Part shown: one piece after another, positions 17,725-32,714 of the stretch
Layout: each line of letters starts with the position of its first letter
Numbering within the stretch: the stretch's first letter is position 1
Assembly: GCF_900167005.1 (NCBI RefSeq)
Contig: NZ_FUXW01000004.1
Span: 124,001 to 188,000, forward strand
Source of the DNA: Butyricicoccus pullicaecorum DSM 23266
GTDB lineage: Bacteria > Bacillota > Clostridia > Oscillospirales > Butyricicoccaceae
Length of the DNA stretch: 64,000 nucleotides
Reading direction: 5' to 3'
Made by a program: the position numbers and the translations under genes
Notes under the pieces: model-generated
What the model was told of the DNA's origin: nothing
What the model saw: only the letters and a program-made list of their open reading frames with translations
Databases searched by the model: none

Positions 17725-17824
17725 TTGACTTTTTCCCGCGTTTGGAGTACACTTAATTTGCTAAGATCGAGTGTATTCCAAAACTCTCACACGCCTTACC
17801 GGTTCAACTGGTGAGGCGTTTTTT
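17725..17824 (+). ncRNA. Candidate small RNA with own promoter and terminator
   Basis: On the plus strand TTGACT (17725-17730), a 17-base spacer and TACACT (17748-17753) make a good promoter. About 65 bases further comes a hairpin ACGCCTTACC...GGTGAGGCGT (17791-17819) running into T6. No reading frame fits between. The transcript would be about 65 nt, antisense to the 3' end of the minus-strand XRE gene. Confidence 0.45.
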
Positions 17825-18263: not shown

Positions 18264-18280
18264 CCTGTTTGTGCCTCCTT

Positions 18281-18520: not shown

Positions 18521-18524
18521 GTTA

Positions 18525-18863
18525 TCATCTCCTTTGCATCAGCAGCTGGCGCTCGTAACGGAACTCTTCGATCACATCCTGCGCATAGCGGATGAACTCA
18601 TCCATCTTGCGCTCCAAGCCGTCCAGATCGGCCTGCGGCACCGTTCCGTGCTCATAGGCGATCAGGCGCTCGGCGTGGATGCGATATCGCCAGCGGCGCG
18701 TCTGCGGGTTGTAGATCGCTTCCCCGATCGGCAGCTTGCCCTCGCGCATAGCCACCGCAACACTCATCGCGTTCGGGTAGTTGCTGAGATATTCCGAGGC
18801 GATCAGCGGCGTCACGCGCGGCAGCGCCCGGATCTCTTCATCAGTCCAGTGTTTCTTGGGCAT
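18525..18863 (-). CDS. Early phage protein, possible DNA-binding (excisionase-like)
   Basis: 112 residues from the ATG at 18863 (MPKKHWTDEEIRALPRVTPLIASEYL) behind AAAGGGGAAGG. The order 'ASEYLSNYPNAMSVAVAMREGKLPIGEAIYNPQTRRWRYRIHAERLIAYEHG' resembles excisionase-type winged helices that end in a strand naming the DNA-binding wing. The C-terminal 40 residues form a helix. It is the first gene of the operon after the moron region, and may control excision or early transcription. Confidence 0.6.
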   Translation of the reverse strand: MPKKHWTDEEIRALPRVTPLIASEYLSNYPNAMSVAVAMREGKLPIGEAIYNPQTRRWRYRIHAERLIAYEHGTVPQADLDGLERKMDEFIRYAQDVIEEFRYERQLLMQRR

Positions 18864-18896
18864 TGTCCTTCCCCTTTCTTGAAATTTATCTGTAAG

Positions 18897-18925
18897 TTGC
18901 TTCCTTTTATCTTTTTCGGTATGAT
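18897..18925 (+). promoter_or_regulatory. Promoter of first membrane moron
   Basis: TTGCTT (18897-18902), 17-base spacer, TATGAT (18920-18925), followed by GAAAGGATGTGAT just before the start codon. The same layout and ribosome-site sequence recur at 19408-19453. Confidence 0.65.
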
Positions 18926-18947
18926 AAAGACGAAAGGATGTGATTTT

Positions 18948-19295
18948 ATGACACTTCAATCTGAATTACTGCTGCACAAACTTCGTAAAGCAGAAAGTTA
19001 TGATGGACAGCTACTATTTATCGATTACGATAATCACCATATTAGCGGGCTCCACGAAGCTTCTGAATCATTTAAAACCGTTTCATTCGTTGAAAGACCC
19101 GAAGAAATGAAATCTGCACTTGAATACCTTCAAGACTGTCATAGGCTTATCATACATCCTCATTCCTATGTCGAGTTGCTACATACCGGTAGCCATATAT
19201 GGCAAGCCAGACTTTCTTGGTTCGCAAACAGCATTTTACTCCCAATCTTTGTCTCTATTGCTACAACTTTAATCACCTTAGCTATTTCATCTTAA
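18948..19295 (+). CDS. Membrane-anchored moron protein 1
   Basis: 115 residues (MTLQSELLLHKLRKAESYDG), on the strand opposite to neighbouring early genes. The first 88 residues are soluble and include LLFIDYDNHHISGLHEASESFK and EYLQDCHRLIIHPHSYVELLH. The C-terminus is one membrane helix (SILLPIFVSIATTLITLAISS), giving a tail-anchored form. Its own promoter and AAAGGATGTG site support independent expression. A longer upstream frame to 18444 has no ribosome site and runs antisense through another gene. Function unknown; tail-anchored prophage proteins can act in superinfection exclusion. Confidence 0.75.
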   Translation: MTLQSELLLHKLRKAESYDGQLLFIDYDNHHISGLHEASESFKTVSFVERPEEMKSALEYLQDCHRLIIHPHSYVELLHTGSHIWQARLSWFANSILLPIFVSIATTLITLAISS

Positions 19296-19369
19296 ATCAC
19301 ACCCATAAACTTCATCGTCAACAATGACGCAATAACGCTAACTGCCGCACGGATTAACGTATCTCTCAC
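19292..19369 (-). CDS. 25-residue hydrophobic peptide
   Basis: A GTG at 19369 preceded by the strong site AAAGGAGGG opens a 25-codon frame: MRDTLIRAAVSVIAS followed by LLTMKFMGVI. It is one short amphipathic or membrane helix. Its stop overlaps the stop of the plus-strand moron (19293-19295), so the two are convergent. It resembles type I toxin or small regulatory membrane peptides in form, but no antisense RNA is evident. Confidence 0.5.
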   Translation of the reverse strand: MRDTLIRAAVSVIASLLTMKFMGVI

Positions 19370-19407
19370 GCGTTTCCCTCCTTTCTAGGCCCCAATATGT
19401 CTATTAG

Positions 19408-19436
19408 TTGCATAACTTCTCCTTTTCGTGTATGAT
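19408..19436 (+). promoter_or_regulatory. Promoter of second membrane moron
   Basis: TTGCAT (19408-19413), 17-base spacer, TATGAT (19431-19436), then GCGAAAGGATGTGATCTGAC before the start. The leader is nearly the same as that of the gene at 18948. Confidence 0.65.
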
Positions 19437-19460
19437 AAACGCGAAAGGATGTGATCTGAC

Positions 19461-19865
19461 ATGGATTTGACGGTTGCACTCTCTTTAATTACGGCTATTA
19501 CAGCCATTGCAGCGCCATCAATCACCGAAGTCATTCGATCAAAAAATACACTTAGAATAAAGCAGTTAGAAATTCATGAAACTGCAAAACGAGAGGCTTT
19601 CTCCCGTTTTTCAAACTCTCTTTCGCAATGGCAGCTTTTCCAGACAGACCGTGACCAAAAATGCATACAAGAAATTCTTTCTGGGATCTATGAAGCAGCT
19701 ATATACTGTGACACTCCCACTCAAGAAGAATTGTATAAATTGATTGCTCTTATCAGAGAGGCTGAGGATAGTAAAAATTACGTTTCCGTAGAACAGCAAT
19801 TTCAAGTCTGTATCACAAAAATTGGCTCTCTGAACCAATCCTTCGGTGACTCGGTTCATAAATAG
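19461..19865 (+). CDS. Membrane-anchored moron protein 2
   Basis: 134 residues, plus strand, starting MDLTVALSLITAITAIAAPSITEVI: a single N-terminal membrane helix. The rest is a soluble helical domain (RIKQLEIHETAKREAFSRFSNSLSQWQLFQ, then EILSGIYEAAIYCDTPTQEELYKLIALIREAED). The leader and ribosome site copy those of the gene at 18948, although the proteins are unrelated. Similar single-pass helical proteins occur in Firmicutes prophages without assigned role. Confidence 0.75.
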   Translation: MDLTVALSLITAITAIAAPSITEVIRSKNTLRIKQLEIHETAKREAFSRFSNSLSQWQLFQTDRDQKCIQEILSGIYEAAIYCDTPTQEELYKLIALIREAEDSKNYVSVEQQFQVCITKIGSLNQSFGDSVHK

Positions 19866-19872
19866 CTACCTC

Positions 19873-20046
19873 TTACACTACATCAAAAATCTTTGGCATG
19901 ATGCACAGAGAAATCAAAAACAACACCGCAAGCACATATGGGATATACCAAGTGAGAATGCGGGATTGAATTTTTACTAAACTGCACAGTGAGATACCTG
20001 TGGCAAAGTACGCAATCAAGATTCCTACCAGCAATTCATATCTCAT
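19873..20046 (-). CDS. Small two-pass membrane protein
   Basis: 57 residues from the ATG at 20046 behind GGAGGGAG. Two hydrophobic helices (ELLVGILIAYFATGISLCSLV and WYIPYVLAVLFLISLCIM) separated by KIQSRILT. It lies 29 bases downstream of cro and is probably in the leftward early transcript. Function unknown. Confidence 0.65.
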   Translation of the reverse strand: MRYELLVGILIAYFATGISLCSLVKIQSRILTWYIPYVLAVLFLISLCIMPKIFDVV

Positions 20047-20075
20047 GTTTCTCCCTCCATTCCTTGTCAGAAACT

Positions 20076-20285
20076 TTATTTGCTAACTGTGAATTTCATC
20101 GGTAAAAAAATATCCTCCACTTTCACAGACAGCAGATCTGCAATCTCGATCGCCGTTGATACAGGAATCATTCTTGCCCCTTTTTCATACTGACAATAGG
20201 TCGAACTTGCAATTCCTAACCTTTCAGCAAAGGCAGACTGTCCGATTCCTTTCTCTTTTCGCAGCTGTTCTAACTTGCTCATCAT
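20076..20285 (-). CDS. Cro-like XRE repressor
   Basis: 69 residues; the first two codons are both ATG. A single HTH domain: LEQLRKEKGIGQSAFAERLGIASSTYCQYEKGARMIPVSTAIEIADLLSVKVEDIFLP. Small one-domain XRE proteins divergent from a CI-type gene act as Cro, the lytic-side repressor. It is the first gene of the leftward early operon and starts about 31 bases after the predicted start of that promoter. Confidence 0.85.
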   Translation of the reverse strand: MMSKLEQLRKEKGIGQSAFAERLGIASSTYCQYEKGARMIPVSTAIEIADLLSVKVEDIFLPMKFTVSK

Positions 20286-20451
20286 CTCACCTCATTTCAC
20301 ATATAGCAAATATTATGCTCCTATTATAGATTCACACTTAGCAAAAGTCAATAGTGTATTTCACGTTTTGCAAAGTTATGTTTTCATTCTGCAAAGATTG
20401 TGCTATGATTTTCACAAGGTGAGAATATAGCAGAAATGAGGTGATGCTGAA
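20286..20451. promoter_or_regulatory. Lysis-lysogeny switch: divergent promoters and operators
   Basis: Leftward promoter: TTGACT (20351-20346), 17 bases, TATAAT (20328-20323). Rightward promoter for CI: TTTTCA (20381-20386), 17 bases, TATGAT (20404-20409) with an extended TG. GCAAA-cored repeats at 20306, 20341, 20370 and 20391 (form (A/T)NTNGCAAA) overlap both promoters and are the likely CI/Cro operators. The 20306 copy is part of a small palindrome AGCA-N7-TGCT. Confidence 0.75.
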
Positions 20452-21066
20452 ATGGGAATTGGTGATCGAATCCGAGCGCTAAGAACCAACACCGGTATGA
20501 CACAGGTCGAACTGGCAAATAAACTCAATATCAGCAACAGCACCTTGTCGCAGTATGAAAGCGGCGCAAGGACACCCAGCGATGACATGAAGTTAAAAAT
20601 TGCAGCCCTCTTCCAAGTCTCTACGGATTATTTGTTGAGTGGCGCAGTAAATACTGTGAACACAAAAGTAAAAGGCGTACAAATCCCCGTTCTGGGTGAT
20701 GTCCGCGCCGGTTATCCGATGGAGGCCGTCGAAAACATCATCGATTACGAGGAGATCGACGAAGAAACCGCGCGTCGTGGTGAGTTCTTTGCCTTGCGTA
20801 TTAAAGGTGACAGCATGGAACCTCGCTTTGTCGAGGGTGATGTCGTCATCGTCCGCAAGCAGGAAACCGCCGACAGCGGTGACATCGTAGTTGCTCTGGT
20901 CAATGGGGACAGCGCGACCATCAAGAAATTAAAGCGACATCAAAACGGTATTACCTTAATGCCGACTAATCCGACCTATGAGCCCATGTACTACTCTAAC
21001 GAGGAAATCATGGAGCTACCGGTCACGATCTTAGGCAAGGTCGTAGAACTGAGAGCAAAATTTTAA
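20452..21066 (+). CDS. CI-like repressor with LexA/S24 self-cleavage domain
   Basis: 204 residues. N-terminal HTH (IRALRTNTGMTQVELANKLNISNSTLSQYESGARTPSDDMK, about residues 8-47). A linker carries the cleavage site Ala86-Gly87 in LGDVRAGYP. The peptidase has the nucleophile Ser121 in GDSMEP and the base Lys158 in SATIKKLK. This is a RecA-stimulated, self-cleaving repressor that keeps the prophage silent and links induction to DNA damage. It is the first gene of the rightward lysogenic transcript that probably continues through the nuclease genes. Confidence 0.95.
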   Translation: MGIGDRIRALRTNTGMTQVELANKLNISNSTLSQYESGARTPSDDMKLKIAALFQVSTDYLLSGAVNTVNTKVKGVQIPVLGDVRAGYPMEAVENIIDYEEIDEETARRGEFFALRIKGDSMEPRFVEGDVVIVRKQETADSGDIVVALVNGDSATIKKLKRHQNGITLMPTNPTYEPMYYSNEEIMELPVTILGKVVELRAKF

Positions 21067-21088
21067 CTCTTGAGAGGATGTGTAATTC

Positions 21089-22078
21089 ATGCCTAAATGC
21101 AAAAAGTGTGGTAAACGCGGCTTTTTCCTTCGTTTGAATGCAAGTGGCATTTGTGAAGAGTGTGAATTACACGATAAAATCCAGAGGCAAATTCAAGTCG
21201 AACAAGCCCAACGTCAAAGAGAAGAACTGCGCCAAAAGGCTTTGGAGCAGCAAAAAGAGCGAGAGCTACGCCTAAAAAAAGAAGAAGAGGAACGCGCTGC
21301 GCGTGTGCAGCAGATCATCGAAGAAAACCGTGAACGTGTCAAACGTGATCTTGCCATCAAGGAAAAAGCACGCGAAGCATTTGACCGTCAATTAGCATCT
21401 ATTCCGATCTATTCCATCCCATATTCTTCTGAAAAAACAAAGCGGCGTGCGGTCTCATCAATGGGAGAAATCACTTATTCAAGAATCACTAAAAAGACAA
21501 GCTTTTCAAAGTTAGGGGACTTTGTCGTGGTTGATACCGAAACTACTGGCATAACCCTCTTATCGTCGAAGATTGTTGAACTATCTGCCATTCGTTTTGA
21601 AAACTTCCGACCAACCATGCTTTTTACAACTTTGATAAATCCTGAATGTACTATCCCACCAGAGGCAACAAATGTGAATCACATCACAGACGAAATGGTG
21701 AAAGATGCGCCTAAAATCTGGCAAGTAATGCCTGCTCTTCAAGATTTCATCGGTACTATGCCATTGGTCGGACACAACCTGCCTTTTGACCTAAAGTTCC
21801 TGTACAAATATGGACTTGATGTTCCTCAACCAAAGCAAAAATTTTATGATACATTGCAAATCGTACCGACTGTTCTAAGCAAAGCAAAATCCAAGTGGGA
21901 TGCTGATCTGCAAGAACGGGTAATCAATTATGAATACAGCTTTGATGTAGAAGATTATAAACTGGGTACCGTTTGCGCGTATTATGGAATACATATATCA
22001 AATGCACATCGTTCTTCGGCAGACTGCCTTGCAACAGGACTTTTGTTTGCAAGATTAGCCCGAGCCAAAACTTTATAA
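21089..22078 (+). CDS. DEDDh 3'-5' exonuclease with zinc finger and coiled coil
   Basis: 329 residues. Residues 1-28 form a treble-clef or zinc-ribbon finger (CKKCGKRGFFLRLNASGICEEC). Residues 30-100 are a highly charged coiled coil. The DnaQ-like exonuclease follows from about 143: FVVVDTETTG (Asp149, Glu151), HITDEMVKDAP, GHNLPFDLKFL, and HRSSADCLATG at the end, giving a DEDDh set. Many prophages place such a gene right after CI. It starts 22 bases after CI and is likely co-transcribed in the lysogen. Role uncertain: repair, replication control or defence. Confidence 0.88.
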   Translation: MPKCKKCGKRGFFLRLNASGICEECELHDKIQRQIQVEQAQRQREELRQKALEQQKERELRLKKEEEERAARVQQIIEENRERVKRDLAIKEKAREAFDRQLASIPIYSIPYSSEKTKRRAVSSMGEITYSRITKKTSFSKLGDFVVVDTETTGITLLSSKIVELSAIRFENFRPTMLFTTLINPECTIPPEATNVNHITDEMVKDAPKIWQVMPALQDFIGTMPLVGHNLPFDLKFLYKYGLDVPQPKQKFYDTLQIVPTVLSKAKSKWDADLQERVINYEYSFDVEDYKLGTVCAYYGIHISNAHRSSADCLATGLLFARLARAKTL

Positions 22079-22115
22079 CTGTTTCTACTGAGACACTAGC
22101 TAAGGGGGATTTTGA

Positions 22116-23306
22116 ATGGACTTCGTCGATCAATTACAGCAATTTGTAAAGAAGATCTCTGGCTTTAAGGACTCCATCACGACCGAAGAGGCGACCAAGA
22201 CCTCGGTCATCCTTCCGTTTTTCCACCTGCTCGGCTACGATATTTTTGACCCCACCGAGTTCGTCCCGGAATTTGTAGCCGATGTGGGTATCAAGCGCGG
22301 TGAGAAGGTCGATTACGCCATCCTGCAGGACGGCAAGCCGATCATCATTATCGAGGCCAAGGCAATGGGCCGCAATCTGGAAAAGCATGATTCCCAGCTT
22401 TTCCGCTACTTCTCCACCACCTCGGCCAAGTTTGCCATTCTGACCAACGGCATCCGCTACCGCTTCTATACCGATCTGGAAGAAGCCAACCTCATGGACT
22501 CCCTCCCCTTCCTGGACATCGACCTGCTGCACCTGCGTGACGCACAGATCGAGGAGCTGAAAAAGTTCAAAAAGGAAAATTTCAGTGTCGCCCGTATCTT
22601 TGACGCGGCATCTGTACTCAAATATGCCGGAAAGTTCAAGGAAACGCTGTCCGAGCAGTTTGAAAATCCCTCAGATGAATTTGTGCGCTTCTTTTTGCAG
22701 GACGTATACGACGGTCGTATGACCCACTCGGTTGTCGAGAAGTTCCGTCCGATCCTCAAGGCATCCATGCAGGAATTCATCAGCGAGACCATGAACGACA
22801 AGATCAAGTCCGCGCTGTCTACGGCGAATGCAGCGCCCGTAGCACCCGCTGCACCTGCCAGCAAGGCACCCGCACCTGTTCCTGCGTCCGCTCCCGTCGA
22901 GGAAGAACCCGCGCCTGTCGTGGAAAGTGCGCCTGAGCCCACTGAGGAAGAAATGAACGCATACTATGAGCTGCAAAACCTGCTCAAGGATGACGTCAGT
23001 CTGGACTCGATTACATACAAAAAGACCGACTCCTACTTTGCCATTCTCTACCAGAACAACACCCGCAAATGGCTGTGCCGTCTGGTACTGTCCGACAATC
23101 AAAAGCTGGTCTATCTGCCCGACGCGGACAAGAATCCCATCCGCCGTCAGGTTGCCAATATTTACGAGCTGGCAAGCTATCGCCGGTACATCACCAGCGT
23201 GATTGCCCGCTACGGCGGTACGCTGCTGCGCCCGCTGGAACGCGAAGATCCCCCGATTTATCAGATTATTCTCAAGCGTCGCTTTCCCAAAAAGCAGCGC
23301 GTCTAA
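22116..23306 (+). CDS. Type I restriction-like nuclease (HsdR N-terminal fold)
   Basis: 396 residues. The first 160 match the nuclease domain of type I restriction subunits: TSVILPFFHLLGYDIFDPTEFVPEF, then a PD-(D/E)xK core VDYAIL...IIIIEAK with Asp66, Glu80 and Lys82, and FAILTNGIRYRFYTDLEE. An Ala/Pro/Glu-rich linker (about 235-275) leads to a C-terminal domain (residues 280-396, YFAILYQNNTRKWLCRLVL, then YRRYITSVIARYGG). No helicase, methylase or specificity subunit is near, so it is a stand-alone nuclease. Orphan proteins of this family are common in prophages and are assumed to be defensive. Confidence 0.85.
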   Translation: MDFVDQLQQFVKKISGFKDSITTEEATKTSVILPFFHLLGYDIFDPTEFVPEFVADVGIKRGEKVDYAILQDGKPIIIIEAKAMGRNLEKHDSQLFRYFSTTSAKFAILTNGIRYRFYTDLEEANLMDSLPFLDIDLLHLRDAQIEELKKFKKENFSVARIFDAASVLKYAGKFKETLSEQFENPSDEFVRFFLQDVYDGRMTHSVVEKFRPILKASMQEFISETMNDKIKSALSTANAAPVAPAAPASKAPAPVPASAPVEEEPAPVVESAPEPTEEEMNAYYELQNLLKDDVSLDSITYKKTDSYFAILYQNNTRKWLCRLVLSDNQKLVYLPDADKNPIRRQVANIYELASYRRYITSVIARYGGTLLRPLEREDPPIYQIILKRRFPKKQRV

Positions 23307-23323
23307 TTGTCAGGAGGTGCCCC

Positions 23324-23887
23324 ATGCCCTTACCCCTTGAAGAACACTACACATACAAAGATTACCTGTCCTGGGTGACCGAGGAGCGTTATGAGCTCTG
23401 GGAGGGTCAAGCCGTCATGCAGGCACGTCCATCCATCCAGCATCAGACAGTATCCGGCAACATCTTCTTTGCCCTGCGCGGCTTCCTCGACGGCAAGCCC
23501 TGCCGTGCGTTCCAGGAGATCGAAGTGCTGCTGCCGTCCTCGTCCAGCCAGAAGGCCGACGATGTGGATACGGTTTATGTTCCCGATCTCACCGTCGTGT
23601 GCGACCCGAGCAAGCTGCACCACCAGTATTGCATGGGCGCACCCGATGTGGTGTTTGAGATCCTGTCCCCTTCCACCGCTCGCGCCGACCGTATCGTAAA
23701 ACTCAATGCCTACCAGCGCGCTGGCGTGCGTGAGTATTGGCTGGTCAGTCCGCTTGAAGAGACCGTGCAGCTGTTCACGCTGGATGGCGGCACCTTCCGG
23801 GCATCGGATATCTTCACGCCCGGCATGTCGGTCACCTCGACCGTGCTGTCCGGATTCTCGGTGGACGTATCCAAAATCTTCCGATAA
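23324..23887 (+). CDS. Uma2-family nuclease
   Basis: 187 residues from the ATG at 23324 behind AGGAGG; a long upstream frame overlaps the previous gene and is not used. Uma2 features: YTYKDYLSWVTEERYELWEGQ at the start, then the PD-(D/E)xK core VYVPDLTVV...GAPDVVFEILSPSTARAD, a LNAYQRAGVREYWLVSPLEETVQLF block, and a closing FSVDVSKIF. Uma2 proteins are putative endonucleases frequent in cyanobacteria and Firmicutes. It starts 17 bases after the HsdR-like gene, so these nucleases form one unit with CI. Confidence 0.92.
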   Translation: MPLPLEEHYTYKDYLSWVTEERYELWEGQAVMQARPSIQHQTVSGNIFFALRGFLDGKPCRAFQEIEVLLPSSSSQKADDVDTVYVPDLTVVCDPSKLHHQYCMGAPDVVFEILSPSTARADRIVKLNAYQRAGVREYWLVSPLEETVQLFTLDGGTFRASDIFTPGMSVTSTVLSGFSVDVSKIFR

Positions 23888-23896
23888 CGCAAAAAA

Positions 23897-23920
23897 TCCC
23901 GCCCTGTGACCGGGGCGGGA
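23897..23920. terminator. Hairpin after nuclease operon
   Basis: TCCCGCCC and GGGCGGGA with an eight-base loop, ten bases after the Uma2 stop. On the plus strand it is followed by A-rich sequence, not T. On the minus strand T6 follows, so its T-run faces the unexpected direction. It may work as a processing or weak bidirectional terminator. Confidence 0.5.
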
Positions 23921-23978
23921 AAAATATCATGCTTATAATCGAACAAATATTTGTTTTTATGTAAAAAGAGGTGAACCC

Positions 23979-25022
23979 ATGCGAAACCCGAACGGCTACG
24001 GCTGTGTTTATAAGCTATCCGGCAAGCGGCGCAAGCCATTTGCCGCGCGCGTGACGATCGACTGGACGCTCAAGGACGGACAGCAGACCGCGACCCAAAA
24101 ATACAAATCGCTCGGCACCTTTGCCACCCGGGCGGAAGCGCTGTCCGCGCTCGCGGCCTATCACGACGATCCGCACGCGATTCCCGGCTCGATCACCTTT
24201 GCACAGCTCTACGATCGCTGGTCGGACCGGAAATTCACCAAGATCAGCGACAGCACGGTCAAGAGCTACAAAGCTGCATACAACTGGTGCGCGGCGCTCT
24301 ACGATCTTCCTTTTGCATCGCTCAAGACCGATCATCTGCAATCGGTCATTGATGGGTGCACGGCCGACTGGCACACCAAGAAGGCGATCAAGACCCTATT
24401 CAATCAGCTGTTCAGCTACGCACTGGAAAACGATCTGGTCGGTAAGAACTATACACAATTTGTCGATCTGGGCGGCTCTGCTCCGGCCACTACCCGACGG
24501 CCGTTTACGCGCAAGGAACAAAAGCTGCTGTGGCAGCATCTGGGCGATCTGGACTGGATCGACACCGTGCTCATTATGATCTATACCGGCTGGCGCATCG
24601 GCGAGCTGCTGGCCATGCGCACGGATGACGTCGATCTGACCGAATGGACCATGCGCGGCGGCTCCAAGACCGAAGCAGGCAAAAACCGACTGGTTCCCAT
24701 CCATTCCCGCATCCGTCCGCTGATCGCGCGGCTGTATGATCCCGGCCGGGAATACCTTATCCCCTCCCCTGACGGCAACCGTCCGTTGTCCTATTACACC
24801 TATCGGGATGTGTACTTCCGTCGGGTCATGGAGCAGCTCGGCATGCCCGACCACCGACCGCACGACTGTCGTCACACCTTCGCCAGCGAAGCCGACTCGG
24901 CAGAGATGAACAAGCTGTGCATCAAGCGCATCATGGGACACGCCTCACAGGACATTACCGATCGGGTTTACACGCACAAGACCATCGAAGAGCTGCGACG
25001 GGAAATTGAGAAGATCCCTTAA
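23979..25022 (+). CDS. Prophage tyrosine integrase
   Basis: 347 residues. N-terminal arm-binding and SAM-like core-binding regions (GSITFAQLYDRWSDRKFTKISDSTVKSYKAAYN) precede the catalytic domain. Catalytic residues: Arg206 in YTGWRIGE, the HxxR box DCRHTF near 298-301, His in MGHAS near 322, and nucleophile Tyr331 in DRVYTHK. It integrates and excises the prophage. It lies at the right end of the prophage, 145 bases from the rpsI 3' fragment that is the likely core site. It runs in the same direction as CI and the nucleases. Confidence 0.95.
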   Translation: MRNPNGYGCVYKLSGKRRKPFAARVTIDWTLKDGQQTATQKYKSLGTFATRAEALSALAAYHDDPHAIPGSITFAQLYDRWSDRKFTKISDSTVKSYKAAYNWCAALYDLPFASLKTDHLQSVIDGCTADWHTKKAIKTLFNQLFSYALENDLVGKNYTQFVDLGGSAPATTRRPFTRKEQKLLWQHLGDLDWIDTVLIMIYTGWRIGELLAMRTDDVDLTEWTMRGGSKTEAGKNRLVPIHSRIRPLIARLYDPGREYLIPSPDGNRPLSYYTYRDVYFRRVMEQLGMPDHRPHDCRHTFASEADSAEMNKLCIKRIMGHASQDITDRVYTHKTIEELRREIEKIP

Positions 25023-25100
25023 ATCTTGTATATTGTTTGTGTATTTTATGTATATTGTCATGGACTCCCGCGTAAAATCCACATACTTTCAGGCATGAAA

Positions 25101-25133
25101 AAAGCACCCAAAACAAGCGTTTTGGGTGCTTTT
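25101..25133. terminator. Strong bidirectional terminator after integrase
   Basis: AAAGCACCCAAAAC-AAGC-GTTTTGGGTGCTTT, a 14-base perfect stem with T's on one side and A's on the other. It ends the integrase transcript. Confidence 0.9.
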
Positions 25134-25166
25134 GTTGTACAAACCAGAGTTCTGATAAGCGATAAT

Positions 25167-25214
25167 TTAGCGCTTGGAGAACTGCGGAGCGCGACGTGCA
25201 GCCTTGAGGCCGTA
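25167..25214 (-). other. Attachment core: 3' end fragment of rpsI
   Basis: On the minus strand this reads YGLKAARRAPQFSKR and a TAA stop, the nearly invariant C-terminus of ribosomal protein S9. The frame upstream (to the right) reads QGKTAQKRAQ, which is not S9, so only the last 48 bp are present. Such fragments mark integration into the 3' end of a conserved gene. Prophage integrase lies on one side and ICE integrase on the other, so this is the junction of two elements. Confidence 0.85.
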
Positions 25215-25315
25215 CTGCGCTCGTTTTTGAGCCGTTTTTCCTTGGTATTTCGGGCTTTTCCGGACTTTTCGCTGTTCAGTTATCCTATGTGGTAACCACG
25301 GAAAATGGCTGTTTT
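25215..25315. other. ICE left end, no gene
   Basis: About 100 bases between the rpsI fragment and the ICE integrase stop. T-rich runs and a CTTTTCCGGACTTTTCG motif are present. It probably holds integrase arm sites of the ICE. No reading frame or clear promoter is visible. Confidence 0.4.
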
Positions 25316-26527
25316 TCAATCAGCAGCGTTCTGATGAAAAGCACCGTTTACTACACTGAACAACTCCTCTGGCTTATTATACTTGACCTTAGCATAGATG
25401 TCCATAGTTGTTTTGCTGTTTTCATGTCCTGCAAGATACTGAACCGTCTTGGGATCAACTCCGGCATAAAGCAGGTTCGTGATGTATGTGTGCCGGAGCT
25501 GGTGTGGGGTCACATCAAAATCCAGCGTATATTTGATTTTGGGTTGATTCCTCTGTGTCATGCCCAGCGTTGGTGTAACCGTGTACTTGATGCTCTGCCC
25601 ATTCACATACTTATAGTAGTTGCGCGGCTTGGTAGACCGAACAACTACATACTGCCATACCCTTTGAAATTGCGATGCAGCTAACGGCTGTCCTTCGCTA
25701 TCCGAAATCACATAGTCCGACTTTGATGCTGTTTTGGCTTCACGCAGGCAGTCCACCAAGCACTTGGGAATCGGAATATCCCTTTTAGCCGCCTTGGTCT
25801 TTAGAACAGTGGAAATCACGGGTCTGTTATGTTCCGTGCGCCATGCTCGCCTTACCGAGATATAGGGAGTAGACTCGTCCAGGAATACACAGTCCCATTG
25901 CAGCGCAAGGATTTCTTCCCGGCGCAGACCGGAATATAACCCAAGCATAATGAACAAGTAGGGAGGAAGCTCCCTGACCGTATCCAGAAGCACTTCTACC
26001 TGCTGATCTGTCAATGCCTCCCTCTTTTTCGCTGGCTTTCCGCCCTTTCCCGATATTCCTACACAGGGGTTATGCTCAAGTATCTGGCTGCGCTCTGCCG
26101 AGTAGAAAATACACTTGAGAAGCATATTTACTGTGCTGTATAACCCCTCCGATTTTTTTGACAGCGGTACAAGCGCCAGCCGAATATCATCTGCGGTCAC
26201 TTCTTCCATATACATCTCACCCAAAGGCTTAATGATATAGTTCTTCATGTCAGCAGTATATCCTCTCAATGTAGAAGCAGATACCTTTGCCGACTGCATC
26301 AGCAGCCACTTCTGACAATACTCGGCCACTGTCGGATGCTGCCGACGAAAGATGATCTCCTCCACCTGTCGCCGCGCTTCTAATTGCTTCTCATATAATT
26401 CTTCGCAAGTAGCAGCATACAAACTCACCTGCTTGCCATCTGCGTCCATGATCCGGGTTCTGTAATACTGGATTCCTTTTTGCATAATGGTTCCGTACTG
26501 CGGAACCTCTGTTTTCATTTTCGCCAT
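25316..26527 (-). CDS. ICE tyrosine integrase A
   Basis: 403 residues. N-terminal AP2-like arm-binding part (YGTIMQKGIQYYRTRIMDADGKQVSLYAATCEELYEK), a core-binding domain (TVAEYCQKWLLMQSAKVSASTLRGYTADMKNYI), and a catalytic domain with Arg in YSGLRREE, the HxLRHTY box TPHQLRHTYIT, His in LAGHENSKTT and Tyr in MDIYAKVKYN. It is a paralogue of the gene at 26684 with the same domain plan and many shared blocks. It lies nearest to the att core and probably performs ICE integration. Confidence 0.94.
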   Translation of the reverse strand: MAKMKTEVPQYGTIMQKGIQYYRTRIMDADGKQVSLYAATCEELYEKQLEARRQVEEIIFRRQHPTVAEYCQKWLLMQSAKVSASTLRGYTADMKNYIIKPLGEMYMEEVTADDIRLALVPLSKKSEGLYSTVNMLLKCIFYSAERSQILEHNPCVGISGKGGKPAKKREALTDQQVEVLLDTVRELPPYLFIMLGLYSGLRREEILALQWDCVFLDESTPYISVRRAWRTEHNRPVISTVLKTKAAKRDIPIPKCLVDCLREAKTASKSDYVISDSEGQPLAASQFQRVWQYVVVRSTKPRNYYKYVNGQSIKYTVTPTLGMTQRNQPKIKYTLDFDVTPHQLRHTYITNLLYAGVDPKTVQYLAGHENSKTTMDIYAKVKYNKPEELFSVVNGAFHQNAAD

Positions 26528-26628
26528 CTTTGACCTTCCTTTCCTGATAACGTGCAGTTTCCGTATCTACACTCTCTTTTTATCAGAAAGTACAGACTTA
26601 ATCAAAGATACGGCCTATGTAAAGCAAA

Positions 26629-26652
26629 GAGCGAGACATCCTTGCCTCGCTC
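26629..26652 (-). terminator. Terminator after integrase B
   Basis: GAGCGAG and CTCGCTC around a ten-base loop; the minus strand continues TTTGCTTT. It lies 32 bases past the stop of integrase B, so integrase A needs its own promoter in 26528-26628. Confidence 0.7.
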
Positions 26653-26683
26653 CTGCTTCGTTTTCGCGTTTGTTATTTTATGC

Positions 26684-27907
26684 TCACACTGAATCCCATT
26701 GCGAAAATGCGTTACCCATCGTTCTGACCAGCTCATCCGGCCTGTTGTATTTGACCTTTGCGTAAATGTCCATGGTAATTTTGCTGCTTTCATGGCCTGC
26801 CAGGTATTGCACCGTTTTGGGGTCTACCGACGAATGAATCAGATTCGTGATGTAGGTGTGTCGCAACTGATGCGGTGTTACTTCAAAGTCCAGGCTGTAA
26901 ACAACATTACCGTTATGCGCCGCCTTTTCTCCAAGAACAGGTGTGACCGTATGCTTTACCCGCTTTCCATCCTCATATCGGTAGTAGGACCGTTCCTTGA
27001 CTGTTCTGGTGACAACATACTGCCACAGCCGCTTAAACTGCGTATAGGACAGCGGATCGCCGTCCCGGTTCGGCACCACATACTCCGAAGTCGAATTTTC
27101 CTTTGTCTCTTTCAGGCACTCAGCCAAACAGGTCGGCAGTGGAATATTTCGCTCGGCAGCCTTCGTTTTTAATTCTTCCAGAATCACCGGCCTGTTGTTT
27201 TCTGTATGCCATGCTCTCCGCACTGTTAAATAAGGAAAGTTTCCATCAAGATAGACCGAATCCCATTTCAGGGCGAGGATTTCTTCCCGCCGCAAGCCTG
27301 CGTACAATCCAAGCATCACAAACACATAGGTTGGCAGTCCTTCCACCGCATCCAATAAGCGCTCGACCTGCTCGTCTGTCAGCGCCGCTTTATCTTTCTG
27401 CGGAACGCCGCCACCCTTTGTCGTTAGATAGATCGTCGGGTTATTATCTATAATCCGGCTTTCCTTTGCTGCACGGAAAATAGATTTATACAGGATCACG
27501 ACCGACTTATATACCGATGCAGATTTTTTTGAAACAGAGACAAGTGCAAGCTGAATATCATCCAGGCTGACCTCTCCCATCCGCTTATCACCTAATTCCG
27601 CAATGATATGACGCCGTACCTTTGAGGTATAGTCCGTCAAAGTCGTGGTACGAACATGAACAGACTGCATCAACAGCCATTTCTCACAATACTCTGCAAC
27701 CGTGGGTGTTTTTCGATGAAATGTGGCGTTCTCAATCTGCTCCAACGCAATCGTTTCCTTATTATAAAGTTCTTCGGGCGTTCTTGCATAAAGGGCAACG
27801 AGTTTTCCATCTGCATCTTTGATTCTTGTTCTGTAATACAGGACACCTTTTTTTATAACCGTTCCATATTCAGGAATTATCATTTTCCTTTTTGCCAATT
27901 CCGTCAC
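26684..27907 (-). CDS. ICE tyrosine integrase B (paralogue)
   Basis: 407 residues with the same domains as integrase A: YGTVIKKGVLYYRTRIKDADGKLVALYARTPEELYNKE, TVAEYCEKWLLMQSVHVRTTTLTDYTSKVR, Arg in YAGLRREE, TPHQLRHTYIT, LAGHESSKIT and nucleophile Tyr in MDIYAKVKYN. All catalytic residues are intact, so both copies may be active. Tandem paired integrases can work together, or one may have come with a second element that used the same site. Confidence 0.94.
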   Translation of the reverse strand: MTELAKRKMIIPEYGTVIKKGVLYYRTRIKDADGKLVALYARTPEELYNKETIALEQIENATFHRKTPTVAEYCEKWLLMQSVHVRTTTLTDYTSKVRRHIIAELGDKRMGEVSLDDIQLALVSVSKKSASVYKSVVILYKSIFRAAKESRIIDNNPTIYLTTKGGGVPQKDKAALTDEQVERLLDAVEGLPTYVFVMLGLYAGLRREEILALKWDSVYLDGNFPYLTVRRAWHTENNRPVILEELKTKAAERNIPLPTCLAECLKETKENSTSEYVVPNRDGDPLSYTQFKRLWQYVVTRTVKERSYYRYEDGKRVKHTVTPVLGEKAAHNGNVVYSLDFEVTPHQLRHTYITNLIHSSVDPKTVQYLAGHESSKITMDIYAKVKYNRPDELVRTMGNAFSQWDSV

Positions 27908-27981
27908 CTCCTAAAATAATCTCCAGCGCTGTATCTTTGTTTTATCAGAGATCTTCAGTTCCAGCAAGGATACGGATTGGC

Positions 27982-28212
27982 TCATGCTCCGGCGTTCCGG
28001 GTCTTGCGGTAAGTCGCATTCTTTTCCATCGGTTTTGCCCGGTGGGTGCATTTTGCGATATACTCCTGAAGGCCCATATCAGTAAAATATACACAACCGT
28101 TCTGCACATACTGAACATAAGAAATCAAGCCGTTGTTACGGGCCGCATCCAAGGTCGCAATGCTGATTCCCAGGATTCTGGCAGCTTCTTTTCGTGTAAT
28201 CAGTTTTTCCAT
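27982..28212 (-). CDS. Excisionase-type HTH protein
   Basis: 76 residues (MEKLITRKEAARILGISIATLDAARNNGLISYVQYVQNGCVYFTDMGLQEYIAKC). This is a MerR-like winged helix of the excisionase family with the usual order: a helix pair, then the strand YFTDMGLQEYI. It would direct the integrase toward excision before transfer. It sits directly upstream of the integrases, as xis does in Tn916/Tn1549-like elements. Confidence 0.88.
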   Translation of the reverse strand: MEKLITRKEAARILGISIATLDAARNNGLISYVQYVQNGCVYFTDMGLQEYIAKCTHRAKPMEKNATYRKTRNAGA

Positions 28213-28268
28213 AAATCATATTCCCTCCATTCCGTCAAGGTTGTCATCGTGCTTTCAAAATCACATGA

Positions 28269-28298
28269 ATGCACTGGCAGCCGAAACTGCCAGTGCAT
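28269..28298. repeat. Perfect 12-base inverted repeat
   Basis: ATGCACTGGCAG-CCGAAA-CTGCCAGTGCAT. It lies 57 bases upstream of the excisionase start with no T-run on either strand. It may be an operator, an RNA leader hairpin or a recombination-protein site. Confidence 0.55.
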
Positions 28299-28785
28299 GG
28301 TATCTAACTTTGAAAAGAAAACTGCATCTGGATGATGACCTGTTGTTGCTTACGGTAACCGGACGCAGCTCTCTTGAATTTGAAGTTCGCTTTCGCCACA
28401 TTTGCCACGCATCCCTGACGATGGGGACATTCCCGGTCTCCGCTGGCGCGGATGTCATAACTCCGCAGCGTCGTTTTACTCGTGCGCCGCAGGGTTCCGC
28501 CTCAAGTCCGTGGGCGGGTGTGAACAAGTATCTTTAAGCCCCCATGGAGTCCTCGCGCTCGAAGTGCCACCTCCGGGTCTCAGGCTGGCGTTGATCGCTG
28601 GGAACAGCCTTGTTTATCACCTCCTTGGCTGTCCATCTTGGCGGCGCGCCTGATTCGCTCGTACATGGGTTATGTACCAGAAATGCCGTCTATTCAATTG
28701 TCAAAGTACCATCGAAGGGGAAAACTTGTCCTTCTATTAACACTGACAAAAGGGGCAAAAAACAGGCGCTTCAAATGAAACTTTA
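28299..28785 (-). other. Long leader between sigma factor and excisionase
   Basis: About 490 bases without a convincing gene. The minus strand has AAGGAGGTG at 28618-28626 followed by a 28-codon frame (MINKAVPSDQRQPETRRW..., to 28534), whose GTG overlaps the ribosome site. Further down is an 88-codon Cys/Arg-rich frame from a TTG at 28527 that I doubt. A TTGACAATTGAATAG element near 28700 could be a -35 region. The GC-rich, hairpin-rich middle suggests a structured RNA leader. Confidence 0.4.
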
Positions 28786-29199
28786 TCAAAAAATTTTTGC
28801 CAACTGTTTCAGCCCACGCCGGATGCTGTCACGGACACGGCTCGGATCTACACCTTCGGCTCCGGCAATCTCATTTACGCTCATCCCCAGATAGTACCGA
28901 GCATAAATTCTTTTTGCCTGTTTCTCCGGCAAAGCCATCACGGCGGAGTAAATCTGCTCGCGCAGCTGCTTTTCCTCCAGAAGCATCTCCGGCGTCTCCA
29001 GCTTTCGCAGGACCGCATTTTCAATTCCATTCTCACAGTCCAGGGAGTACTGCGCCTTATAGCGATACATTTTTCGCTCATAGGCTGCTTCAGCTCGCTC
29101 GTCAGACTGAAACACCGCTTGTACTTCATCGGTTACTTCCAAAAAGGCATCGGTTTTATAAACATCGGGATACAGATCCCGAAGATTGACTTTCTTCAT
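28786..29199 (-). CDS. Small sigma-70-like factor of the ICE
   Basis: 137 residues from the ATG at 29199 (MKKVNLRDLYPDVYKTDAFLEV) behind GGAGGTAC. The C-terminal half is sigma region 4: LREQIYSAVMALPEKQAKRIYARYYLGMSVNEIAGAEGVDPSRVRDSIRRGLKQLAKIF. The N-terminal half resembles the linker of ICE-borne sigma-like regulators, and region 2 is not clear. Such proteins in Tn916/Tn1549 relatives switch on excision and transfer genes. The upstream 51 in-frame codons lack a ribosome site. Confidence 0.88.
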   Translation of the reverse strand: MKKVNLRDLYPDVYKTDAFLEVTDEVQAVFQSDERAEAAYERKMYRYKAQYSLDCENGIENAVLRKLETPEMLLEEKQLREQIYSAVMALPEKQAKRIYARYYLGMSVNEIAGAEGVDPSRVRDSIRRGLKQLAKIF

Positions 29200-29306
29200 T
29201 ATGTACCTCCATTTCGATTCACGGGTGATTAGCGGGTGAATCGAATGGAGGCGGGGAACGGCATCGAGGCCGTTTGGGGACATTCGGCAAAAAACGACAA
29301 GCAAAA

Positions 29307-29337
29307 GCGCCAGTCTCCCATTCCAGGAAACTGGCGC
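29307..29337 (-). terminator. Terminator upstream of the sigma gene
   Basis: GCGCCAGT and ACTGGCGC with an inner TCC/GGA pair; the minus strand then reads TTTTGC. It separates the sigma gene from the regulator unit at 29664. Confidence 0.65.
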
Positions 29338-29472
29338 AACAAAAAAGATCATTATTATTCCGGTTTGCGCAGAACGATAATACCGACAGGTTGCCGAACT
29401 GCCCCGGAGGGGAAGCTACACTTTTTTTAGCAAGTGAAGATTATGAGAACTGTAAAAGGTTAAAACAAACAA

Positions 29473-29496
29473 AGCGGCATCCTCCTATATGCCGCT
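29473..29496 (-). terminator. Terminator after the winged-helix regulator
   Basis: AGCGGCAT-N8-ATGCCGCT; the minus strand continues TTTGTTTGTTTT. It is 170 bases past the regulator stop. The space 29497-29663 holds nothing else that I can identify. Confidence 0.75.
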
Positions 29497-29663
29497 GTAA
29501 ATAACCTTTCTGTCTACGCAGTATAAAGCGGCAGCTATTCAGCAAGCCGCGTTTTCATTGAACCATTACTCAATTAACAGCTGCTCGCCATTATTGAGAG
29601 CTATGGTATAGAACAGAAAGCAAGATTTACTTTAGATTTATACAAGATTTGCACAAGAAATAC

Positions 29664-30350
29664 CTATACTTCGAATTTGTAGCCTATTCCTCGAATGCTT
29701 TTAATATGTTCTGATGCAGTTTCCGAACTTTTTAACTTTTTCCGTAAATTACTTATATGGCTTGAAATCGCATTGCGTGAATAAAACGAAAAATCATCAT
29801 GCCAAACAGAATCCATTATCATTTCATAAGTATAGACTTGCCGTTGATTCATAATTAGCAGCGCAAGAATATCAAACTCTTTTTCGGTCAAATCAATGCA
29901 TACCCCAGCTATCTCTACAGACCTGTACTCTAAGCAGAAAGACAAGTCTTTCACAGTGATGATTGTTAGCGGTCTTCTTTTATCTTTTGGTATTTTCAAA
30001 CAATTTCTCATACTATTTTTCTCTGAAAACATTTCTACCATAGGATGATTATAGGTATGTAAATATTGAGCAGCACCAAAATGGACACATGCATACCGCT
30101 GTTCCTCCGAATATGAAGGTGGCACAACAATAATTGGTACCGCACGTTTTTGTCTCAAGATATCCAAATCGTCTTGTGGAATCACATCAGAGCAAATAGC
30201 TACGCATATATATTCTTTAAAAGACAGCATTGCGGCCGCTTGTTTAATATTATCAGCATAGTCAAATTCAATTTCAAATTCTTTCCATCGGCCAGCAGTA
30301 ACCTCATATTCATTATAGGCGTATCCTACGCCCAATACATGCGGAACCAT
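29664..30350 (-). CDS. OmpR-type winged-helix regulator with degenerate receiver
   Basis: 228 residues from the ATG at 30350 behind AGGAGGTG. The C-terminal domain is a clear trans_reg_C winged helix: SVEIAGVCIDLTEKEFDILALLIMNQRQVYTYEMIMDSVW...SHISNLRKKLK...IKSIRGIGYKFEV. The N-terminal 120 residues have receiver-like order, but the phospho-acceptor Asp and the Lys of the PIIVV strand are not visible (CVAICSDVIPQDD, VPIIVVPPSY). It may therefore work without phosphorylation. No kinase gene is nearby. It probably controls the adjacent DegV-radical SAM unit. Confidence 0.85.
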   Translation of the reverse strand: MVPHVLGVGYAYNEYEVTAGRWKEFEIEFDYADNIKQAAAMLSFKEYICVAICSDVIPQDDLDILRQKRAVPIIVVPPSYSEEQRYACVHFGAAQYLHTYNHPMVEMFSEKNSMRNCLKIPKDKRRPLTIITVKDLSFCLEYRSVEIAGVCIDLTEKEFDILALLIMNQRQVYTYEMIMDSVWHDDFSFYSRNAISSHISNLRKKLKSSETASEHIKSIRGIGYKFEV

Positions 30351-30386
30351 ATGTTCACCTCCTACTACTTCTAGCAGACAGTTCAA

Positions 30387-30415
30387 AGCTGCCGAGCATA
30401 AGTTACCCGGCAGCT
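30387..30415. terminator. Hairpin between DegV unit and regulator
   Basis: AGCTGCCG and CGGCAGCT around a 13-base loop. Minus strand continues TTTG, so a weak terminator for the DegV transcript. Confidence 0.45.
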
Positions 30416-30477
30416 CTAAACAAAACTATATTTTTCTATGATGGAGAATGCTTTTTTGCGTATCTACAAATCCTCCG

Positions 30478-31350
30478 TCATCGATTATTTCCCCAGTAAA
30501 TCAATGCCAGTGCGCCGGGACCGGTGTGTGCTCCGATGATAGGGCCAATATAAGCAATACAAATCTCAGAATCCGGGAATTGTTCCAACAACCTTTCTTT
30601 CAGCATATCTGCTGCTTCAGGGTCATCGGCATGACCTATCAGAATCGATTTACCAAGTTCAGGTTTCCAGCCCTGTTCCATTCGGGCAATCTGAGTGGTA
30701 ACAGCCTTTTTTCTTCCACGAGGTTTTTCCACTGCTTGCAGCTTTCCTTCGCTGTCCACATGAAGCAACGGTTTGATCTGCAAAGCCGTTCCCATTGCGG
30801 CTGCGGCACCTGAAACCCGCCCGCCATGTTTCAAATGGGTAAAGGTATCAACCGTAAACCAATGACATACCTCTAATCGGTGTTCCATGACCCAAGAAGC
30901 CAATTCATCAATAGACAGTCCTTCCCTCTGCTTTTTCGCAGCTTCTCTGACTAAAAACCCTTCACCCACTGCGGCAGCAAGCGTATCAATGCAGATGATT
31001 CTTCTTTCCGGATATTCCTGCTGTAGTTCTTCAACCGCTAAAAACGCAGACTGATATGTACCTGACAGACCAGAGGAAAAACAGAGATACAGAATATCGG
31101 TTCCCTGTCGCAGACAGGGTTCAAAATGCTTAAAATAAATCGTTGGGTTGATTTGTGAGGTCGTTGCAAAATTCCCAGCTCTTTGCAAGCGGTAGAACTC
31201 CTTGGCTGTGATTCCTTCCGGGGAACCATATGAGTATTCTGTTCCGCCGATCTCAACATTCATAGGAATCATTTCAACAGATGGCAGACCTGCGGTTAAC
31301 TCCGGTGCGAGATCTGAGGTGGCATCTGTGAAAATTTGATAGCCGTCCAT
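30478..31350 (-). CDS. DegV family fatty-acid binding protein
   Basis: 290 residues from the second ATG (31350), which overlaps the radical SAM stop by one base. DegV features: YQIFTDATSDLAPEL at the start, FATTSQINPTIYFKHFEPCL, LYLCFSSGLSGTYQSA, ICIDTLAAAVGEGFLV, and HLKHGGRVSGAAAAMGTALQIKPLL. DegV/FakB proteins hold a fatty acid for phosphorylation by FakA and feed host lipid metabolism. Here it is coupled to a radical SAM gene, a recurring pair in Clostridia elements of unknown purpose. Confidence 0.92.
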   Translation of the reverse strand: MDGYQIFTDATSDLAPELTAGLPSVEMIPMNVEIGGTEYSYGSPEGITAKEFYRLQRAGNFATTSQINPTIYFKHFEPCLRQGTDILYLCFSSGLSGTYQSAFLAVEELQQEYPERRIICIDTLAAAVGEGFLVREAAKKQREGLSIDELASWVMEHRLEVCHWFTVDTFTHLKHGGRVSGAAAAMGTALQIKPLLHVDSEGKLQAVEKPRGRKKAVTTQIARMEQGWKPELGKSILIGHADDPEAADMLKERLLEQFPDSEICIAYIGPIIGAHTGPGALALIYWGNNR

Positions 31351-32714
31351 CACTTCTTACACCCACTACAGCCCTGACAAGCAGCCCACAGCTCATCGGC
31401 CTTCGGCTTCCAGGTTTCTGCATAAAGTGTAGTCTTATCACACAGATGGTCAACACTTTCCGGGGACTGATACTCGGTAGAATGGGCACCGGATTTCTTT
31501 ACCATGCTACGCAGACATTCAGGATTTTCCAGCATAGGACACGGCTGGAACATATTATCATTAAAGGGCTGACCGTCGTGATAGGCCATAAACAGCGGAG
31601 ACTGATATGCTTCCAGCAGGGTCTTTTCACGGATGTTGGAGTCAGAGTAATGGATAAAAGCGCAAGGCTCAATGTCACCATTGGCATTGATATGCAGATA
31701 GTTGCGGCCACCAGCAATACAGCCGTTTACAAATTTCGCATCATTCTGAAAGTCAATTGTGAAAATAGGCTTTGTGCTACGGTATTCGCAGATGCGGTTA
31801 TACATCTTTTCACGCTGGTCAGGAGACGGGAGCAGCTCCACAGCGGAATCGTTGCCCACAGGCATATAGTGGAAGAACCATGCGAACTTCGCACCGCACT
31901 CCACCAGATGATCGAAGAACTCATCCGAGCTGATGGAGTCGATGTTCTTGCTGGTATAGCACCCAGATACGCCGAAAGGCAGCTTCTTTTCTTTCAGAAT
32001 CTTCATCGCCCGCATAGTAGCCTGATAAGTACCCTTGCCACGGCGGAAATCAGTAGCTTCCTCGAAGCCTTCAATGCTGATGGCCGGGTAGAAGTTCTTC
32101 ACCCGCAGCATCTCATCGGCAAACTTCTCATCGATAAGGGTACCGTTGGTAAAGGCAGAGAATACGCAGTCAGGATGCGCTTCACACAGGCGGAGCAGAT
32201 CGTTCTTGCGTACCATAGGTTCACCGCCGGTGTAGAGGAACATATAGGTTCCCAGTTCATTGGCCTGATTGATGATGTCATCCAGTTCCTCATAGCTCAG
32301 ATTCAGCTTATTACCGTATTCTGCCGCCCAACAGCCGGTGCAATGAAGGTTGCAGGCGGAAGTGGGGTCCATCAGGATTGCCCAGGGGATATTGCAGCCG
32401 TACTTTTCACGATTAGCCACCTGCTTGCGGCTGCCTAAGAGAGATGCATTGACAATAAAATTGCGGAAGAACACTTTGCGGACTTCAGAATCAATGTCCG
32501 TCCAAAGGCTGTTGATCAGGCGCATCCAGTTGCTGTCAGGCTGCTCCATCACCTTACGGATTTGCTGGCGCTGTGTGAGATAGAGGTTATCCTTATCGAA
32601 CTTATCCGCCCAATCTAACAACTTGGGGAATGCTTCCTGCGGATTGCTGTCAACATATTTCAGCACTTGATTGACGGCGAAAGCCTGTGCGCTGTCTTTA
32701 ATAGAATTACTCAT
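31350..32714 (-). CDS. Radical SAM protein with SPASM-like C-terminus
   Basis: 454 residues. The cluster motif CNLHCTGCW lies near residue 121, in DPTSACNLHCTGCWAAEYG. TIM-barrel landmarks are FLYTGGEPMVRKNDLLRLC, SAFTNGTLID and PAISIEGFEEATDFRRGKGTY. The C-terminal region has Cys clusters (NGCIAGGRNYLHINANGDIEPCAFIHYS, FQPCPMLENPECLRSMVKK) and ends CQGCSGCKK, consistent with auxiliary iron-sulphur sites. No precursor peptide gene is evident nearby, so its substrate is unknown. Confidence 0.93.
   Translation of the reverse strand: MSNSIKDSAQAFAVNQVLKYVDSNPQEAFPKLLDWADKFDKDNLYLTQRQQIRKVMEQPDSNWMRLINSLWTDIDSEVRKVFFRNFIVNASLLGSRKQVANREKYGCNIPWAILMDPTSACNLHCTGCWAAEYGNKLNLSYEELDDIINQANELGTYMFLYTGGEPMVRKNDLLRLCEAHPDCVFSAFTNGTLIDEKFADEMLRVKNFYPAISIEGFEEATDFRRGKGTYQATMRAMKILKEKKLPFGVSGCYTSKNIDSISSDEFFDHLVECGAKFAWFFHYMPVGNDSAVELLPSPDQREKMYNRICEYRSTKPIFTIDFQNDAKFVNGCIAGGRNYLHINANGDIEPCAFIHYSDSNIREKTLLEAYQSPLFMAYHDGQPFNDNMFQPCPMLENPECLRSMVKKSGAHSTEYQSPESVDHLCDKTTLYAETWKPKADELWAACQGCSGCKK

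Follow-up and report, generated by a model that had tools for sequence, protein, structure and literature searches.

The window, the whole stretch of 64,000 nucleotides analysed here, very probably contains the junction of two site-specifically integrated elements, an ICE and a prophage, at one rpsI hot spot. It corresponds to positions 124001-188000 of contig C17 in a 35-contig genome that is 99% complete. Minus-strand positions 25214-25167 are the last 48 nt of rpsI and translate as YGLKAARRAPQFSKR followed by a stop codon. This S9 tail is flanked on one side by a convergent prophage integrase and on the other by a tandem pair of ICE integrases, and all three proteins match the Pfam family Phage_integrase (PF00589). 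The sequence upstream of the tail (25215-25315) is non-S9. The first-pass annotation had described such an isolated S9 C-terminus between the two sets of integrases, and translation, residue identity and the Pfam matches confirmed it. Also supported is its proposal that the 3′ end of rpsI holds a stack of two elements whose integrases are unrelated. A single rpsI was found in the genome (C20:722317-722724). The remnant is identical to the end of this gene at 43 of 48 nucleotides and at 15 of 15 residues, the five nucleotide changes leaving the protein unchanged. The locus shows tandem accretion: at least two serial elements carry repeats of the rpsI 3′ end, and the intact gene lies at one end of the array with the displaced tails behind it, across a contig link that we infer from colinearity. 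The C-terminus of S9 contacts the P-site tRNA, a role that would account for the conservation of this target.

Positions of the features discussed (window coordinates unless a contig is named).
Feature	Position	Strand	Remarks
Prophage portion inside window	1..25182	.	Whole prophage C17:112439-149182, 36.7 kb
Tape measure	2-3787		PHROGs
Major tail protein	4301-4864		PHROGs
Capsid	6258-7490		PHROGs
Protease	7487-8161		PHROGs
Portal	8158-9348		PHROGs
Large terminase	9361-11082		PHROGs
Helicase	15229-16626		PHROGs
Prophage tyrosine integrase, 347 aa	23979..25022	+	Pfam, PHROGs; convergent with rpsI
Prophage attachment flank	25023..25113	.	ATATACA/ATACACA words repeated (by eye); candidate arm sites, putative function
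Terminator-like hairpin behind S9 stop	25101..25132	-	14-bp stem, descending arm ending in U; fold, z -4.65
Prophage attachment repeat, 69 bp	25114..25182 (C17:149114-149182)	-	Exact direct partner at C17:112439-112507
Displaced rpsI 3′ end, 15 codons + stop	25167..25214	-	ICE attachment core at its integrase end
ICE portion inside window	25215..64000	.	Continues to C17 ~197.2 kb, then by colinearity on C20 to intact rpsI
ICE end between S9 tail and integrase 1	25215..25315	-	Motif GGTTACCA-N5-GATAACTG at 25277-25297
ICE tyrosine integrase 1, 403 aa	25316..26527	-	PF00589
ICE tyrosine integrase 2, 407 aa	26684..27907	-	Pfam Phage_integrase; 58% identical to integrase 1
MobA/VirD2-type relaxase of ICE	44120..45529	-	PF03432

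The edge of the ICE was defined from related elements. A scan of the contig collection with integrase 1 returned 286 relatives, the best 80 of which were analysed. An S9 tail lies 150-168 nt past the integrase end in 71 of these best 80, and the strict S9-tail motif is present somewhere in the locus in 72. In an alignment of 24 loci belonging to one ICE subtype, 58 of the 59 columns from -60 to -2 before the TAC codon are invariant. Position -1 is A in 15 loci and G in nine, only 25 of the 48 columns of the core are invariant, and not one of the 60 columns after the stop codon is. Because column invariance drops at this point in the 24 loci, the ICE boundary was placed at the base before the Tyr codon, -49/-48 from the end of rpsI. 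The sequence past this boundary at the integrase end is, on the strength of the alignment, displaced recipient DNA, and the final 48 nt of the expressed rpsI, like the hairpin behind them, would come from the ICE. The motif GGTTACCA-N4/5-GATAACYG occurs once at the integrase end and twice at the ICE end behind an intact rpsI, with N4 and N5 spacing (L001:1987-2057). The copies at both ICE ends fit putative arm sites of one integrase system.

A site-specific integrase adjoins the attachment site of this element, and at least one gene each for a relaxase, a coupling protein and a mating pore is present, as required of an ICE. The mating genes comprise a Relaxase-domain gene together with T4SS-DNA_transf, which appears interrupted, and TrbL_2 on C20. 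The coupling-protein gene appears to be split by a nested element. Between window positions 30478 and 32714 the ICE carries as cargo a radical SAM/SPASM protein gene beside one for a DegV-family protein.

By its predicted integrase, packaging, head and tail genes, which lie between attachment repeats, the second element is a temperate prophage. Both of its ends are present on C17. The 69-bp repeat takes in 16 nt from the end of rpsI and 53 bp from the 3′UTR, with the ascending arm and the loop of a terminator-like hairpin. Its left copy lies outside the window, 11.5 kb left of the window start, and the repeat accounts for all 40 repeated 30-mers in C17:100001-160000. Only the first base of the descending hairpin arm belongs to the repeat, so the rest of this arm is prophage sequence. 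At the far prophage end the first hairpin arm pairs with a different partner, enclosing a small palindrome, and a hairpin also lies behind intact rpsI. The z values of the three folded junctions are -4.65, -6.24 and -4.82 (window, far end and intact rpsI). A simple terminator scan that requires the stem to be followed by a T run had no hit in the rpsI orientation at either of the two junctions tested, so that the word terminator is here a reading of the folds.

Several minor features accompany the prophage. A small near-palindrome lies in the hairpin loop behind the far core (C17:112375-112454) and has no other genome match longer than 17 bp. At the same end (C17:112615-116174), two ORFs that received no assignment separate the gene for a thymidylate kinase from one for a weak ThiI/QueC-like protein. 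Beside the prophage integrase (window 21089-23887) are genes for an exonuclease-domain (RNase_T/DEDDh) protein, an HSDR_N-domain protein and a Uma2-family protein, the last matching the PADLOC candidate PDC-S03; these genes are possibly lysogeny cargo. A search for the integrase in 50,697 phage records gave no close phage: 194 records match, all below 60% identity and the best at 40%. One IMG/VR contig is identical and may come from the same genome.

Stacking at rpsI is found well beyond this genome. Homologues of the prophage integrase occur in 36 of 394 genomes of the order, the own genome included (E up to 1e-30). The 42 places of this search were reduced to 30 loci, 29 besides that of the window, some of them with short flanks (92 nt in L165). 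A family search, which served to choose genomes, had matches in 71 of 87 genomes, mostly at rpsI itself. Among the 15 family relatives displayed, seven have a sequence that stops less than 100 nt past the rpsI stop codon, as expected if repeated elements crowd there. ICE ends were taken from the same best 80 of 286 relatives: the 72 loci with a strict S9 tail, minus seven with less than 2.5 kb downstream, left 65. A second recognisable element lies close behind the S9 tail in 17 of these. A prophage-type integrase, convergent and at most 0.7 kb behind the tail, is seen in 10 of the 65 and a ParA match at most 1 kb behind it in seven, two ParA/ParB matches lying farther off. Among the 17 stacked loci, four have partial matches (to the phage-type integrase in L094, L098 and L105, and to ParA, over 37 aa, in L055), and three, L092, L099 and L100, are nearly identical to one another. 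Given the restriction to the best 80 of 286 relatives, the loci left out and the short flanks, these frequencies are not population estimates.

This recurrence bears on whether the ICE and the prophage arrived together as one composite unit rather than by two insertions. Transfer of tandem units is discussed in the sections of PMC5704250 cited here. However, the same layout is present in ten other loci with other integrases behind other ICE copies, and in 8 of the 29 homologue loci such an integrase is convergent to intact rpsI directly, with no ICE end between. Joint arrival is thus improbable, and two separate insertions remain the preferred reading.

In a phylogenetic tree the window integrase falls outside a clade of 16 other rpsI-adjacent homologues, its placement being weakly supported (86/62). 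For a grouping of the window integrase with these homologues, the AU p value was 4.45e-34 for the 17 labelled rows and 4.65e-07 when L173, which lies inside the clade, was added, the second group having been defined once the tree was known. Rows shorter than 250 aa (L094, L098 and L179) and L186 were left out. Because the window integrase lies outside the rpsI-adjacent clade, its targeting of rpsI seems independent in origin; the 69-bp repeat argues for a settled rather than an accidental site. Inspection by eye of ten prophage-type integrases that are not at rpsI revealed no common target beside them.

Short extra K-R-stop tails (AAGCGTTAA, AAGAGATAA) follow the S9 stop codon in L092, L099 and L109, all of which carry a stacked integrase, and are possibly scars of earlier insertions. 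Such scars directly after the S9 stop were counted in 3 of 72 loci, two of them near-identical, against 38 of 3330 control windows. Another stacked case is seen in isolate CHKCI004, where L047 and L108 (both FCNR01000054.1) are two integrase-plus-S9-tail ends of this ICE family about 15 kb apart on one contig.

The first-pass annotation had predicted an intact rpsI beyond the far end of the ICE. The gene was found on C20, with ParA and ParB genes behind it, and its proposed connection to C17 is based on colinearity rather than on a direct reading. An unbroken 58.8-kb element runs from intact rpsI to the S9 tail on one contig in G061, taken as Agathobaculum butyriciproducens QEKJ01000002.1. Followed from its rpsI end, this element is colinear first with C20 (rpsI to 809457) and next with C17 (197215, descending to 149167). 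The colinearity of C20 is interrupted, among other places, at about 736.6-796.3 kb by nested material. Besides serine-recombinase domains, this material contains another ICE of the same type in inverted orientation, and it appears to lie in the coupling-protein gene. A tetracycline resistance gene of the TetM/W/O/S class is located just beyond it (C20:798064-799983). The join itself is occupied by a group II intron with reverse transcriptase and maturase domains. Intron copies of 2591 bp, 100% identical, lie at the ends of C11, C16, C17 and C20, and the assembly is broken there.

Two observations favour the pairing of C20 with C17 across the intron. A VirB6-type gene is split between them, with its first part at the C20 end (TrbL_2) and the remainder on C17; when the nested ICE and G061 serve as references, the two parts meet to within 32-48 bp. 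In addition, within the 20 of 22.8 kb of C11 that were examined, similarity to C20 is confined to the intron and about 30 adjacent bp. Past the intron, C17 ends in 188 bp that correspond to a flank on C11 and not to C20. These 188 bp, like the related ICE nested on C20, would suit an arrangement in which C17 holds a second ICE copy, with its partner rpsI end absent from the assembly, and the rpsI of C20 carries a different ICE. The single rpsI found in a nearly complete genome, the split VirB6-type gene and the limited match of C11 to C20 make such a missing partner very improbable, and the C20-C17 link would hold.

The first-pass annotation had also assumed that the two integrases share a single attachment core of 48 bp. 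In its favour, the last 16 nt of rpsI are present in both repeats, and the left prophage copy keeps a degenerate similarity to rpsI upstream of these 16 nt. However, the ICE boundary lies at -49/-48 and the prophage repeat extends from -16 to 53 bp past the stop codon, so the boundaries are about 32 nt apart and only the 16 nt of rpsI are common to both. Far-end repeats of three of the eight rpsI-adjacent elements with homologous integrases (G048, G379 and G358) likewise start at rpsI -16 or -17; they measure 16-19 nt, lie roughly 10-16 kb off and have BLAST E values of 5e-5, 0.002 and 9e-5 respectively. Recombination of both integrases at one identical 48-bp core is therefore highly improbable, and two distinct boundaries within one gene tail are preferred. 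A longer far-end repeat, from rpsI position -11, is found about 12.6 kb away in G275. No far-end core was found in the stretch available for G266, G319, G405 and G089. Relaxase domains (Mob_Pre; Relaxase) are encoded in two of G048, G379 and G358 and a small terminase subunit in one; the two relaxase-bearing elements look like mobilizable elements.

The core copy expected left of the prophage does exist, as the partner of the 69-bp repeat with its 16 nt of rpsI, and not as a 48-bp core. A check of the flanks, which had been suggested for full rpsI and further cores, recovered full rpsI on C20 and no third copy of the 48-nt tail in C17 and C20:695001-812047 with up to 14 of 48 mismatches allowed. 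The 16-nt core is found only at C20:722709, C17:149167 and C17:112492 in C17 and the 117 kb of C20 searched, and a further S9 tail left of the prophage was rejected on this count. There is hardly any chance that the S9 tail of the window is a fortuitous or decayed rpsI duplicate unrelated to integration, since its edge matches the ICE boundary of 24 other loci, its last 16 nt match the edge of the prophage repeat, no third copy turned up in the search just described, and 71 of the best 80 ICE integrase relatives carry the same tail.

Beyond the left prophage core, the sequence from 0.9 kb after rpsI in G005, a genome of the same genus, matches C17 from 88.9 kb downward. As the match starts there, about 23 kb of further islands lie between the left core and that point. 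G005 alone, among 11 downstream stretches of relatives, gave a long colinear match; the other ten gave none, or short or scattered ones. An island at C17:93119-111925 carries a large serine recombinase, a Mob_Pre relaxase and type I specificity and methyltransferase genes, and, as judged by eye, a transposase-like ORF.

We propose that the Tyr codon of KYGLKAARRAPQFSKR in rpsI was the point of recombination for an ICE with tandem tyrosine integrases. The ICE would have substituted its own version of the final 48 nt of the gene, along with the hairpin that it carries behind them, and moved the original tail and 3′UTR to the integrase end of the element (window 25167-25214). Recombination of the 36.7-kb prophage, whose integrase is unrelated, would have taken place within the 69-bp stretch formed by the last 16 nt of rpsI and the 3′UTR. 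The target may have been the displaced tail, or rpsI before the ICE arrived. The order along rpsI would then be intact rpsI, the ICE with its nested elements, the S9 tail, the prophage, the second short core, the further islands and the sequence that matches the rpsI neighbour of a relative. The expressed rpsI keeps its full reading frame, with hairpins after the stop at the three folded junctions. The two boundaries, both prophage ends and the recurrence in other genomes are read from sequence; the assignment of the integrases to their sites, the order of insertion and present activity are what we infer. The attachment sites do not tell the order, as either one would leave the same sequence.

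Comparable arrangements are known from streptococci, for which the literature already describes accretion at rpsI, a distinction between long and short repeats, and a prophage located among ICE genes at this site. According to the sections of PMC5357655 cited here, streptococcal rpsI is targeted by three integrase families, Tyr_4 and Tyr_5 with long repeats and Tyr_7 with short ones, and ICE-IME and IME-IME tandems occur at its 3′ end. The present locus shares the gene end and the long and short repeats; it is likened to those accretions by site and repeats, not by integrase sequence. It differs in that the host is a gut Clostridium and the element with the short overlap a full prophage. GBSInt5, in the passages of PMC7487436 considered, is a full prophage at rpsI of group B Streptococcus with ICE-signature genes before and after it, and rpsI is called there a site common with ICEs. 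The table row for GBS5 in that paper gives no attachment repeat, whereas both repeats are resolved here. IMESag-rpsI also has a tyrosine integrase and the 3′ end of rpsI as its site (PMC5090054, the site from PMC5704250, both as excerpted) but is a mobilizable element, neither an ICE nor a phage. ICEs at rpsI are listed in the part of PMC4701971 cited, and accretions at rpsI in that of PMC7168690. A search of the open-licence literature for this Clostridial ICE at rpsI, or for paired integrases, found nothing, which is weak evidence of absence.

The streptococcal hot spot is here extended to many gut Clostridia and resolved to two boundaries 32 nt apart in one gene tail. Two separate boundaries would explain how unrelated elements can queue at one gene with neither mutual blocking nor a change in S9. 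For the exchange point of the integrase, the 24 records of different organisms within one ICE subtype provide a natural data set. The analysis also draws attention to a tandem integrase pair under purifying selection.

This pair is present in 72 of the 80 loci (the best 80 of 286 relatives). Of the remaining eight, six start so close to the end of a contig that the pair would not be visible, and L118 and L122 are without it. In six comparisons covering both genes, dN ranged from 0.05 to 0.15 and dS from 0.9 to 3.2, the high dS values being saturated. As dN is far below dS, both integrases are kept by purifying selection. The motifs common to the two proteins are presumably the catalytic R, HxxR, H and Y. 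Our suggestion, a tentative and rather doubtful one, is that the pair may form a bipartite recombinase comparable to XerC/XerD, in which each subunit recognises one half of the asymmetric rpsI site, and that the phage and mobilizable-element integrases converged independently on a second exchange region of this tail, about 32 nt downstream. If so, the S9 tail would be a two-storey docking site at which unrelated elements pile up without mutual exclusion. For both ICE integrases, PDB 6EMY Int and related entries are among the best matches of solved structure, mainly over the catalytic end, and the XerC-like recombinase 4A8E ranks first for integrase 2. In contrast to 6EMY Int, which we take to be the Tn1549 integrase, the present system has two tandem integrases and a gene-specific target.
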